DNA of 64,000 bases from Thermomonas sp. Its GTDB lineage: Bacteria > Pseudomonadota > Gammaproteobacteria > Xanthomonadales > Xanthomonadaceae. Location: positions 62,001 to 126,000 of the forward strand of contig NZ_JAMLIW010000004.1 in the NCBI RefSeq assembly GCF_023953935.1. Reading direction: 5' to 3'. Below the pieces are notes generated by a model. The model worked only from the letters and a program-made list of their open reading frames with translations. It ran no database searches and was not told the DNA's origin. Every line of letters starts with the position of its first letter. The stretch's first letter is position 1. This document shows, piece by piece, positions 1 to 3,482 of this stretch. The position numbers and the translations under genes were made by a program.

Positions 1-104
1 CGCAGCAATTGCCACAGACCTTGTTCGGCATCGGTGCCATGCTGGCGCAGGCTGCGCGCGAAGTCGGTGGCTTCCTTGGGTGGGTAGGGTTTGTGCGTGT
101 TCAA
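1..104 (-). CDS. DUF559-type endonuclease, N-terminal fragment (partial at window edge)
   Basis: The reading frame of the MmeI-like gene continues past the left palindromic element into a segment reading NTHKPYPPKEATDFARS and then LRQHGTDAEQGLWQLLR before leaving the window. This resembles the N-terminus of DUF559 proteins, small VSR-like PD-(D/E)XK nucleases that typically begin with an Arg-rich TDAEQ-x-LW-x-LLR helix. A TTG codon at 104-102, about 8 nt after a GAGG, could start a separate gene; otherwise it is fused to the upstream frame. The catalytic part lies outside the window, so the family call rests on about 34 residues and is tentative. Confidence 0.45.
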   Translation of the reverse strand, partial: MNTHKPYPPKEATDFARSLRQHGTDAEQGLWQLL

Positions 105-106
105 GG

Positions 107-313
107 CGCCCTCACCCCAACCCCTCTCCCGGGGGGAGAGGGGCTCACGTGCGCTGCCTGCTTGTCCTTCCCCCTCCATGCGATGGCAACACGTTTTGCC
201 TGCTTGTCCTTCCCCCTCCGGGGGAAGGTGGCGCGCAGCGCCGGATGAGGGCGCTTTGGGCTTGTCGTCAACAGCGCCCTCACCCCAACCCCTCTCCCGA
301 GGGGAGAGGGGCT
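107..313. repeat. Composite GC-rich palindromic elements, truncated plus full-length
   Basis: A full element (about 205-313) matches the copy at 1204-1313 nearly base for base. It has a CCTTCCCCCTCCGGGGGAAGG hairpin-like left end, a middle with CGCGCAGCGCCGGATGAGGG, and a right end CCCCTCTCCCGAGGGGAGAGGGG. A second right-end unit lies at 107-144 and a clipped left-end unit (TGTCCTTCCCCCTCC) near 161-178. Read on the minus strand, the whole block is open in the frame of the MmeI-like gene. It separates the MmeI-like part from the DUF559-like segment. Confidence 0.8.
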
Positions 314-1203
314 CAAGCGCTGGCCAGGGGAAGTTGTTGTAGACGATGTTTACCGAATACTGATAGTCACTTTTTAGGCGGCCACTTGTGTATCGCGTCC
401 ATGCCATGTGCATGGTGGAGGTGAGGATACCGAAGTCGTACAACGTGGCATGCGGAAAGATTCGCAATTTATTGCTTGCTAACGTTTCCGGGGACATGAA
501 GCCAATCGGAATGAAATGGCGCCGCTCGGATGACACTTCCGGAATCACCAGATAATTGTCGTCCGGAATGTTCTCCACATGAAACCGCGTCGGCGTCGCC
601 GCCAGCTTCCGCGTGGGCGCGCTCTTGCTGGTCAGCCGCAGCTGCCGCACCGCTTCCACGCGCTTCAAGCATTCCGGCATCGCCCGCAATTCCGACGGCG
701 GGCAATCGCCCAGCCACAGGCACCAGCGTTCCCAGCCATTGATGAACTCATCCGCGCCGAGCCAGCGCCGGAACCACTTTGCCGAAGCAGGCTCCTTCGC
801 AATGAAGGCATCGCGCTCGTCGGTGGTGAACAGGTAGTGGCCGCCGTCGATCGGCTTGTTGCCGATTCCGATTTCCGGAACCTCGCAAATCGGCGTATTG
901 CGACTGGGCAGCAGCACATCCGCCGCGTCCACCAGATACGGGTTGATGTTCGCAACCGCCAGTTCGTGCGACTGCCCGCGAATGTCCTGATAGTCGAACA
1001 GGCGCTTGGGCGTGAGGTCGCCGCGGGCAAAGCCCACGATCACGCAATGCACCGCCGCCACGCCGCGCGCTTCGTTGTTCCATTGAAAGGTGCGGTGGGC
1101 GAAGAAGATGCGCATGCCCGCGTTCAACATCGCGCCCCACAGCACGCCCACCTGCTCGCCCTGGGTGATGGAGTTGGTGGAGACGAAGGCGCAGCGAATG
1201 GCC

Positions 1204-1313
1204 TTTCCTTCCCCCTCCGGGGGAAGGTGGCGCGCAGCGCCGGATGAGGGCGCTTTGGGCTTGTCGTCAACGGCGCCCTCACCCCAACCCCTCTCCCGGA
1301 GGGAGAGGGGCTT
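1204..1313. repeat. GC-rich palindromic element inserted in frame inside the MmeI-like gene
   Basis: About 110 bp near-identical to 205-313, bounded by the same two palindromes. On the minus strand it adds about 36 codons ([13 protein letters not shown] at the start, HLPPEGEGK at the end) between YLK and AIRCAFVSTNSITQG, two stretches that are normally nearly contiguous in the MmeI family. The frame is kept on both sides and there is no stop inside. Confidence 0.85.
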
Positions 1314-2892
1314 GAGATAGGCGGCTGCCTTCAGATACCAAGCGCATACAAAATCCAGCACGCCTGCGCCTTTCAGTGGGCCGGCAATTGCCAACAAATC
1401 GTCGCGCTGCTGCGCGTTCATCATCTTCGACCCCACGAACGGCGGATTCCCCAGAATGAAATCCAGCTCCGCCGCCGGCACCACGTCGTTCCAGTCGATC
1501 CGCAGGGCATTGCCATAGACAATCGTGGCGGATTTCTTCAGCGGCAGGCGCAGCACGTTTTCGCCGAACTGCTCGGCCACGCGCAGGTTCATCTGGTGGT
1601 CCATCAGCCACAGCGCCACCTGCGCGATCTGCGCGGGGAATTCCTCGATCTCGATGCCGTAGAACTGGTCCACGTCCACCAGCACGTGGTCTTGCACATG
1701 CGCCAGCACCGATTGCTGACGAGCGAACTGGCGCTCAAGCACCTGCAATTCCAGCAGGCGGATTTCGCGATAGGCAATCACCAGAAAATTGCCGCAGCCG
1801 CAGGCCGGGTCGAGGAACTTCAGGGTGGCCAGTTTGCGATGCAGCTGCGCCAGCTTTTTCTCGTCGTGGCCTGCCTTGTCCAGCTCGGCCTTGAGGCCGT
1901 CGAGGAACAGCGGGCCGATGAGCTTGAGGATGTTCTTCTCGCTGGTGTAGTGCGCGCCGAGATTGCGGCGGGCCTTGGCATCCATCACCGACTGGAACAT
2001 CGAGCCGAAGATCGCCGGGCTGATCCGGCTCCAGTCAAGCTGGCTGGCCTCCAGCAGCAGGCCGCGCATGGCGGCGTTGAAATCGGCCAGCGGCAGGAGT
2101 TCATCGAACAATTTGCCGTTGACGTAGGGCAGTTCGGCCAACTGTTCGTCCAGCGTGGTCTGGCGCTTTTCCGGCGCGCTGCTGAGCACCTGGAAGATGC
2201 GCCCGATCCACATGCCGAGGTCGCTGCCGTCTTCGCGGGTGCGCTGGCTGATGAGCTCGTGGAAGCCCTGGCGCGGGAAGATGCCGGTGTCGTCGGCAAA
2301 CAGGCAGAACAGCAGCCGCACCAGCAACACTTCCAGCGCGTGGCCATCGAAACCCGCGCTTTCAGTGCATCGTGCAGACGGCCCATGCGCTCGGCGGCCT
2401 GCACGTTGACGGGGTCTTCTTCCTTGTAGCTGCGGGTCTGGTAGCCGCTGATGAAGCCGAAGCGGCCGATCTCCTTCGGCAACTCCGCCAGCGTGAATTC
2501 CACCCGCTCGCGGGTTTCGAGGTCATGCAATACGAAACGGCGGAAGTCGCTCACCAGCACATGGCGCGGCAATTCCGCATCGCTGAGCCCGGCGAAGTAA
2601 TCGGTGGCCTGCGCGAACGCGGCCTCCAGATCGCGGCCGGCGCTCTTGTGCTCGGCCAAGAGCACACCCGGCCAGAACACGTCGATGCGGCCGTACTGGC
2701 TGCCGGAAAAGCGCGCGGCTTTCTGCTCGAACACCGCCACCCGCCGACGCTGCACGCCGAACACGTGGAAGAACGCGTTCCAGAAACTCTGCGCCTCGGC
2801 GCGCTCGCTGGTCTCGGTGGCCCATTCGCGGGCAAATGCGCGGGCGCGGTCGCGGATTTCGTTGAGGCTCAGGGGCATCGGGTCGCCTCGGT

Positions 2893-3189
2893 TTACGCGG
2901 CCGCCTGCCACGGTTGAATGGAGGCCAGCACATCGCCGATTGCGTCCTTGGCCATGGCGGCATCGAAGTCCAGCTGCAACCCGGTCCAGAACTCGTCCGA
3001 GGTGCCGAAGAAGCGCGACAGCCGCAGGCCGGTATCGACGGTAATGGCACGCGTCCCGGCGACGATTTCCCCGATGCGCCGCTGCGGCACCCCGATGGAC
3101 TTGGCGAGCCGGTACTGGGTGATGCCCATCGGCTCCAGGAACTCGTGCATCAGGATGCTGCCCGGATGCGGATAGGGAATCTTGCGCAT
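2893..3189 (-). CDS. higA: HigA-family antitoxin (addiction module antidote)
   Basis: 98 aa, beginning MRKIPYPHPGSILMHEFLEP and continuing through the HTH stretch ITQYRLAKSIGVPQRRIGEI, the classic HigA-type XRE helix-turn-helix (residues about 22-60). HigA neutralises the HigB RNase and represses its own operon by binding palindromes at the promoter. The gene lies 11 bp downstream of higB, so the toxin gene comes first as is usual for higBA. The MmeI-like gene starts 14 bp after it, which suggests all three are co-transcribed. Longer in-frame starts upstream lie inside the higB end and are less likely. Confidence 0.93.
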   Translation of the reverse strand: MRKIPYPHPGSILMHEFLEPMGITQYRLAKSIGVPQRRIGEIVAGTRAITVDTGLRLSRFFGTSDEFWTGLQLDFDAAMAKDAIGDVLASIQPWQAAA

Positions 3190-3200
3190 GGCCTTGCCTC

Positions 3201-3482
3201 CTAGTGGTAGTCCACGATTTCGACCTTGCCGGGGCCGCTGGCGGCCCAGATGAAGCACAGCCGCCACTGGTCGTTGATGCGGATGCTGCGCTGTCCCTTG
3301 CGGTTGCCTTTCAGGGCTTCCAGGCGATTGTTGGGTGGAATGCGCAAATCGTCCAAGCTGGCCGCCCGATTCAACATGGCCAGTTTGCGCATGGCAACGG
3401 TTTCGATGTTCACGAATCGACGCACGCGCACGCCATCGAACAGGGCTTGCGTTTCCCGACAGCGAAACGACTGGATTGCCAT
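3201..3482 (-). CDS. higB: HigB/RelE-type toxin (plasmid maintenance system killer)
   Basis: 93 aa, close to the usual HigB length. The core LRIPPNNRLEALKGNRKGQRSIRINDQWRLCF is the signature of the killer-protein family, ribosome-dependent mRNA interferases with a RelE fold (stretches LRIPPNNRLEALKG and QRSIRINDQWRLCF). Arg and Trp residues of the C-terminal strand are intact, so the toxin looks functional. Its ATG at 3482 is directly preceded by three copies of a TAGTATCG-type half site (3487-3529), the probable HigA operator. It is first in a higB-higA-R-M operon. Confidence 0.93.
   Translation of the reverse strand: MAIQSFRCRETQALFDGVRVRRFVNIETVAMRKLAMLNRAASLDDLRIPPNNRLEALKGNRKGQRSIRINDQWRLCFIWAASGPGKVEIVDYH

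Follow-up and report, generated by a model that had tools for sequence, protein, structure and literature searches.

In-frame palindromic repeats in an MmeI-like restriction-modification gene of Thermomonas sp. and their association with DUF559 endonuclease genes

The palindromic element in the MmeI-like gene

The question raised by this locus is how a palindromic repeat comes to be translated within a conserved enzyme, and from what such repeats might originate. The window, i.e., the whole stretch of 64,000 nucleotides analyzed (62001-126000 of contig C11 in a genome of 2.59 Mb), begins within a gene coding for an MmeI-like type IIL/IIG restriction-modification protein. Its main frame (3..2330, minus strand; 776 aa in the window, continuing beyond it) contains the helicase-spacer, methylase, and TRD parts, and a further frame (1985..2911, minus strand) contains the MmeI_N domain and departs from the main frame near 2365. 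Pfam matches place MmeI_hel, MmeI_Mtase, and MmeI_TRD in one frame and MmeI_N in another, and the MmeI-like type IIL/IIG domain set (MmeI_N, helicase spacer, methylase, TRD) is complete when this second frame is included. The frame break near 2365, overlooked in the initial annotation, separates MmeI_N from the remaining gene and could be either real or a sequencing error; because the frame is broken near the N-terminal domain, the activity of this gene copy is uncertain. A relative in genome G021 (locus L047) has an uninterrupted frame of 1047 aa (1042 aa in the fetched stretch) with both insertion sites filled, site 1 by two repeat copies. Between the window gene and the G021 gene, dN/dS was 0.11 before the insert and 0.21 after it (dS 0.33 and 0.26, respectively), and by this comparison the MmeI-like gene is under constraint. 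Beside the restriction gene, two small ORFs at 2893-3482 on the minus strand resemble a HigBA-type toxin-antitoxin pair, as read from their translations.

The element at site 1 (1204..1313, minus strand) is read in frame and yields a peptide ending in ...LPPEGEG. It is 110 bp in total and consists of two hairpins, A (1207..1227) and B (1288..1310), with the inward tails GGATGAGGGCGC and GCGCCCTCACCCC between them (1242..1285), paired across a 19-nt spacer (1254-1272); strand does not apply to the hairpins and tails. The fold of 1204-1320 gave z scores of -5.6 (DNA) and -5.7 (RNA) against 200 shuffles, none of which folded as well. The element is both palindromic and multi-copy, as are the Rickettsia palindromic elements (RPEs). 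The near-identical neighbor described in the initial annotation is present, as a 112-bp copy at 202-313 that is 96% identical and starts 999 bp apart from the first, and the frame, which was said to stay open through the element, is open on the minus strand across both copies, over 1043 aa from stop to stop, and extends past the window. Openness as a striking feature in its own right was rejected, since four of the six frames of the element are stop-free; across 13 long copies 50 of 78 frames are stop-free, against about 51% expected in random DNA of the same GC content, so openness alone is weak evidence. The informative point is rather that the frame is kept within conserved genes.

The element was also thought to split two conserved segments that are normally adjacent, and this holds: it is flanked by the Pfam domains MmeI_Mtase and MmeI_TRD, and 36 residues stand where MmeI (PDB 5hr4) has 3, the alignment to 5hr4 covering residues 2-340 and 377-674 of the window protein. 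Comparison with homologs lacking the element, which had been proposed as a check, gave a net gain of 33-34 residues in the window protein, the segment from NPPF to STNSI being 95 aa long in the window gene and 61-62 aa in six element-free orthologs of the Thermomonas group. In an AlphaFold2 model (26 aligned sequences, mean pLDDT 69.9), the insert (residues 343-375, pLDDT below 50) was placed in a loop of the methylase domain between helix 329-339 and strand 379-385, with very low confidence and without regular structure. The best structure match of the model was MmeI (PDB 5hr4) at 53% identity, with a TM-score of about 0.5 and an rmsd of 12.6; how the model arranges the domains overall is therefore not to be trusted. 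The original observation of an in-frame palindromic element in an MmeI-like gene is confirmed, and the finding is larger than first noted.

The second copy (202..313, minus strand) is also in frame, at site 2 of the same gene between NNFPWP and KHRAAIE, and site 2 lies between the TRD and the C-terminal part of the protein. Alongside it are a degenerate partial repeat (155..186, minus strand) and, beyond this, a half-element made of hairpin B and its tail (106..152, minus strand), which forms the 5' inverted repeat of a DUF559 unit with the tail toward DUF559. The window start cuts through an in-frame DUF559 (PF04480) nuclease domain (C11:61754-62074), whose first part occupies 1..74 (minus strand). 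Site 2 is composed, all in frame, of the 96% identical copy, the half copy, a whole DUF559 domain, a 3' palindrome, and the MmeI C-terminal part. Both the in-frame position of the second copy and the DUF559 domain had been overlooked in the initial annotation. According to translation reading only, L092 (Pseudoxanthomonas spadix) also has an in-frame DUF559 at site 2, and L137 has a DUF559-like stretch there that is out of frame.

In-frame copies in other genes and recurrently filled loops

A search of the same genome scored 40 of 89 candidate regions and gave 47 element matches, which may be an undercount given the share of regions scored, and these merged into 36 clusters. As many as 15 of the 36 clusters are stop-free and in frame within 13 conserved genes of unrelated function. 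Twelve of these genes code for Mfd, IcmF (a fused isobutyryl-CoA mutase), an NDP-sugar dehydrogenase, MurL, Mpl, HrpB, PriA, MiaA (IPPT), a dihydrolipoamide acyltransferase, an RND permease, an ABC-F ATPase, and a lipoyl-bearing dihydrolipoamide dehydrogenase; the thirteenth is the MmeI-like gene, which holds three of the 15 clusters. Mfd, IcmF, MurL, Mpl, HrpB, PriA, and ABC-F passed NCBIfam equivalog cut-offs, the sugar dehydrogenase passed a subfamily cut-off, the dihydrolipoamide dehydrogenase and MiaA passed Pfam cut-offs, and the acyltransferase (E2) and RND matches fall under the cut-offs of their best models. For the NDP-sugar dehydrogenase, MurL, E2, and ABC-F, codon scoring favored the antisense frame, and their identity is taken from the family matches. 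The in-frame copies add about 14-40 residues to the proteins. The frame is kept in all 13 genes, for which the chance would be (1/3)^13 if insertion were indifferent to frame, with stops uncounted and on the assumption that no broken gene was missed.

The remaining 21 clusters were assigned provisionally by a crude gene call, with 15 intergenic, 5 across gene ends, and 1 (L026) inside a predicted ORF. Codon-score gene calling is ambiguous in GC-rich DNA, and out-of-frame intragenic copies could have escaped because the call was crude. The initial annotation had called for a count of copies in coding frames and had read the element as Rickettsia-like, i.e., as a palindromic repeat translated in frame in a protein loop; the count bears this reading out, and the opposite pattern, in which copies avoid coding regions and are random in frame, was not seen as far as the data allow it to be judged.

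Orthologs were fetched for 5 of the 12 non-MmeI genes, namely Mpl, MiaA, PriA, HrpB, and Mfd. The Mpl segment occurs in this genome and in G021 and is missing in the other 8 of 9 relatives, while the MiaA and PriA segments were found in 4 and 3 of 12 relatives, respectively. The HrpB loop is empty in 3 of 13 relatives, nearly empty in 1, and filled by longer segments of several kinds in 9, and the Mfd loop is empty in 3 of 14 and holds segments of several kinds in 11, with the HSREG type in G018 and G011. Since the loops of relatives are empty or differently filled in these five genes, it is the loop that is constant and the filling that varies.

The same pattern is observed within the MmeI family. 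From 161 relatives the best 80 were taken, of which the 75 with one long frame were aligned and 5 were dropped. Among these 75 homologs, site 1 had 17 insertions of at least 12 aa and site 2 had 9; elsewhere there were 3 at residue 142, 4 at 862, and 1 each at 864, 876, and 896, and 7 insertion entries fell at residues 484-485 within a variable region. At site 1, at least six repeat types were distinguished by reading the peptides, with type names coined in this analysis: HSREGGNP...PRLRGDD in several Lysobacteraceae, the type of the window element in L080 (G021) and something close to it in L137, R[AP]ELVE[AG] in L098 and L133, AGAHEP in L099 and L118, GASPARE in L108, and PPLTRGGWEG in L131. 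At least 5 of 10 site loops checked (L083, L085, L087, L098, and L131) have copies of the same family elsewhere in their own genome; the L135 loop had no further same-family copies in its own genome among the matches listed. Many MmeI-like homologs carry no insert at all. It had been stated that a similar-length segment in other genera would speak against an inserted repeat; such segments do exist, but at least five of the ten loops checked are members of repeat families within their own genomes, so the objection holds in wording but not in substance. The MmeI-like gene has two tolerant loops, which are filled by other repeat families in other species. In addition, AGEG-type segments near residue 142 in L133, L149, and L108 (Gallionellaceae, Gallionella, and Nitrosomonadales records) mark a third tolerant loop.

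The age of the site-1 insert can be viewed against that of its flanks. The inserts of this genome and of G021 show no differences over 37 aligned codons, whereas the flanking dS is 0.26-0.33; the identity refers to the aligned codons only, and a search of the G021 locus for the exact 110-bp string did not find it. By this codon comparison, the insert is younger than the split of the two genomes, homogenized, or placed twice. With 37 identical codons between such flanks, it may be too recent for a dN/dS test of tolerance, and the dN/dS values against G021 (0.11 and 0.21) were rejected as proof of tolerance after insertion, since the insert is possibly a later arrival or homogenized.

Palindromes around DUF559 genes

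Both DUF559 domains of this genome, the second of which is an intact copy at C9:106675-106989, have element copies on both sides. In a search of 200 genomes of the order, 76 had a DUF559 match, and the DUF559 and Y1_Tnp loci examined were the best-scoring matches rather than a random sample. At 32 order-level DUF559 loci, 101 of the 166 core-motif matches within 1.5 kb lie no more than 100 bp from the domain. The core motif was present within 150 bp at 23 of 31 order-level loci (one short locus dropped), on both sides in 16, and at 17 of 28 phylum-level loci, on both sides in 9; 8 of the 31 and 11 of the 28 have no core within that distance. The same search around Y1_Tnp found the motif at none of 27 loci (31, with four short ones dropped), on either or both sides. 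The nearest tail points inward at every order-level DUF559 locus having one (17/17 upstream and 18/18 downstream, 32 loci examined), the exact motif being missing upstream in 15 and downstream in 14 of the 32, and motifs farther out that point the opposite way numbered 7 upstream and 3 downstream.

The cleanest unit is L169, in which inverted ends of about 40 bp surround one gene. Exact inverted matches of at least 14 nt flank DUF559 at 11 of 31 order-level and 7 of 28 phylum-level loci and reach 66 nt (L281), and shuffled flanks reached 14 nt once. The flanks of different DUF559 loci also match each other, by up to 39 nt, and several of the own matches are no longer than these; the test is therefore better evidence of a common repeat family than of matched pairs. 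At L182, L178, L160, and L167, DUF559 lies beside other repeat-like peptides of the ACRGG or LQGEAG type, and the inverted matches of L182 and L178 are 36 and 28 nt long; these neighbors suggest matched pairs of DUF559 and palindrome. The 66-nt perfect inverted repeat around DUF559 at L281 (region G404:C31:46107-46412) singles it out as a promising candidate for recent movement.

A comparison of occupied and unoccupied sites was possible in the G117 genus, where 14 of 20 genomes gave a single match spanning almost the entire query and six genomes were aligned. G117 and G178 have the arrangement palindrome-tail-DUF559-tail-palindrome upstream of a gene that, by reading, is a putative homogentisate dioxygenase gene, G235 has one solo palindrome at this place, and G236, G222, and G230 have neither. 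A target-site duplication was sought in this six-genome alignment and no clear one was found; excision was likewise not seen in it. Such a pattern would be expected if the unit had inserted into a palindrome or had been lost with one palindrome left behind. An element also lies just upstream of a putative homogentisate dioxygenase gene in both the present genome (L026:3091-3116) and the G117 genus (L169).

Co-occurrence across genomes was assessed by counting as DUF559-positive the 67 of 200 genomes with a match at E 1e-15 or better and by searching for a 22-nt core, allowing at most one mismatch, on the assumption that the DUF559, core, and Y1_Tnp searches covered the same 200 genomes. With kinship ignored throughout, at least one core copy was found in 49 of 67 DUF559-positive vs. 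10 of 133 negative genomes, and at least five copies in 32 of 67 vs. 1 of 133. A reversed-pattern control gave matches too in some of the genomes, 7 of them among the 19 with at least 20 copies; for the threshold of five copies, and again ignoring kinship, the counts are 31 of 67 vs. 1 of 133 after subtraction of the control, and 22 of 67 vs. 0 of 133 when only control-free genomes are considered. The core pattern is absent in 18 of the 67 DUF559-positive genomes. In genus g16, copies number 123 and 53 in the two DUF559-positive genomes, and 14 of 15 negatives have none, the exception being G172 with 10. G172 is the sole genome without a strong DUF559 match to have at least five core copies, which may be relics or the work of a different mover. 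The presence of Y1_Tnp does not predict the core significantly in the 200 genomes (48/150 vs. 11/50 genomes, P 0.21; for at least five copies 29/150 vs. 4/50, P 0.08). Many near-identical Y1_Tnp copies (18 matches) are present in G081.

A DUF559 profile built from 19 sequences matched the endonuclease-like protein 3hrl in the PDB (1.4e-40) and, weakly, 3r3p ("mobile intron protein", E 0.0015), which we take to be I-Bth0305I, a Vsr-like homing endonuclease. The core ExDGxQH has invariant E, D, G, Q, and H. Matches of the profile to toxin B-subunits (16 rows, E of 0.03 or above) were taken as chance. The DUF559 protein VsrA of Caulobacter is described as Vsr-like and a likely repair enzyme (PMC12907096).

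Origin of the palindromes and comparison with known systems

The ends of the short element are shared with a longer gene-bearing form, as in MITEs, in that the DUF559 units have the same inward palindromes. The element probably derives, as a non-autonomous MITE-like copy, from a small mobile unit whose parent form encloses one DUF559 gene. The parent unit would consist of two palindromes with tails inward around a single gene for a DUF559 (Vsr-like PD-(D/E)XK) endonuclease, and the short form would have the same architecture with a 19-bp spacer replacing the gene. Copies would enter sites throughout the genome, and those within genes would persist only if they preserve the frame and place the added residues on a flexible loop or linker, with frame-breaking insertions presumably removed by selection. 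DUF559 may drive the spread by nicking or cutting at the palindrome, followed by copying, like homing endonucleases; that it moves the palindromes at all we infer with a confidence somewhat short of even. The full reading is that minimal mobile elements of about 0.5 kb, whose sole gene is DUF559 between inward palindromes, are the source of a widespread palindrome family in Xanthomonadales and of comparable palindromes in other members of the phylum. They would spread by nuclease-primed copying without a transposase, repeatedly enter protein loops in frame, and occasionally bring the nuclease domain into a host protein, as in the MmeI-like gene and, by reading, in Pseudoxanthomonas spadix. We put this reading forward tentatively, as nearly but not quite an even proposition.

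Several other explanations were weighed against this one. The repeats might be selfish in-frame palindromes moved by another enzyme, either a tyrosine transposase of the RAYT/TIRYT type or an unknown one, with DUF559 a passenger or a homing gene lodged between them; we regard this as rather unlikely, though deserving serious consideration. The TIRs of some tyrosine transposases are reported to have GGGGWSAS in common (PMC3733652), and a transposase origin is possible because the tail GGGGTGAG matches this motif of TIRYT repeats. There is also one Y1_Tnp gene in this genome, and many DUF559 genes lack such palindromes, but none of the 27 Y1_Tnp loci has a core within 150 bp, Y1_Tnp presence does not predict the core at either threshold, and no core motif lies closer than about 1.5 kb to the Y1_Tnp locus of this genome. 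On these grounds the tyrosine transposase was rejected as a partner, in a sample of best-scoring loci in which weaker RAYT-like loci are under-represented.

It might be argued instead that the insert has been exapted by the restriction enzyme, for instance to tune its activity or make it conditional, with loops selected to vary, as two loops of one defense gene are repeatedly filled by different segments and a nuclease domain lies in frame at site 2 in the window gene and, by reading, in L092. However, inserts of the same kind occur in housekeeping genes of unrelated function, many homologs are insert-free, and the modeled insert is placed with very low confidence and lacks regular structure, which makes exaptation very unlikely. 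Slightly less probable again is that the MmeI-like gene is a decaying pseudogene, in which an open frame through the element would be meaningless. The frame break near 2365 would fit such decay, but the uninterrupted G021 gene with inserts at both sites, the low dN/dS on both sides of the insert, and the in-frame copies in twelve other conserved genes speak against it. Finally, the similar-length loops in other genera could mean that an ordinary loop, variable across the family, or an assembly artifact has been mistaken for a repeat; this is hardly credible in view of the 47 genome matches, the fold score, and the own-genome repeat families represented in at least 5 of the 10 loops checked.

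The proposed DUF559-bearing units and their short derivatives share features with several known systems. MITEs are similar in having a short gene-free form with inverted ends beside a longer one-gene form with like ends, but the gene of the present family codes for a member of an endonuclease family and no transposase, and a target-site duplication was not found at the sites in the G117 genus. By profile, the structure 3r3p is related to DUF559 distantly and weakly in sequence (E 0.0015); it is titled a mobile intron protein, whereas inverted palindromic ends and short derivatives characterize the DUF559 units. MmeI itself (PDB 5hr4), the top structure match at 53% identity and a TM-score of about 0.5, differs in having 3 residues at site 1 where the window protein has 36.

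Among repeats found within genes, RPEs are palindromic repeats of about 150 bp that lie in frame in unrelated protein genes and are apparently tolerated (PMC10969869; PMC3733652), and the intragenic CGTC repeats of R. conorii are equated with RPE-4 and RPE-6 in the latter (PMC3733652). The window element is likewise a palindrome in frame in unrelated protein genes, but the host of RPEs is Rickettsia and the likeness rests on description rather than on sequence comparison. No nuclease partner of RPEs is mentioned in the available parts of PMC3733652 and PMC10969869, whereas the window repeats adjoin DUF559. Intragenic GTAG/CGTC REPs have in-frame copies in repair and RNA-modification genes and form dimers in opposite orientation, and the recB genes of Xanthomonas are struck at about one site by different REPs (Di Nocera et al., 2013, PMC3733652). 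The initial annotation had stated that no equivalent was known in this lineage; this cannot be upheld, and the lineage is not without precedent, because the same source describes in-frame REPs for Xanthomonas and Stenotrophomonas (PMC3733652). The window repeats resemble these REPs in their in-frame copies in conserved genes and their dimers in opposite orientation; they differ in having other tags and in that their associated gene is DUF559. By eye, no GTAG or CGTC tag lies at the stem foot beside hairpin A or B within 1204-1313, where CGTC occurs in the spacer only. RAYT transposases are the partners of GTAG REPs, and CGTC REPs, one of the two large groups in the 2013 survey, are stated there to be without a dedicated transposase (PMC3733652); a position of the window repeats flanking a Y1 transposase was seen at 0 of 27 Y1_Tnp loci and was not seen at the locus in this genome.

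The tolerance of the proteins is a fresh case of a known phenomenon for which the comparative evidence is unusually rich. Recurrent in-frame filling of loops amounts to a natural insertion scan of proteins, showing at which points Mfd, PriA, HrpB, MiaA, and a type IIL restriction enzyme can take up tens of additional residues. In the open-licence literature, searched by title and the start of the abstract, no paper linking DUF559 to palindromic repeats was found; two papers that mention both DUF559 and palindromes were judged to be unrelated on the same basis. The association of DUF559 with palindromes is new and testable, and DUF559 genes lying between palindromes, and co-occurring with them across 200 genomes, offer a candidate mechanism for the spread of such repeats that can be put to the test.
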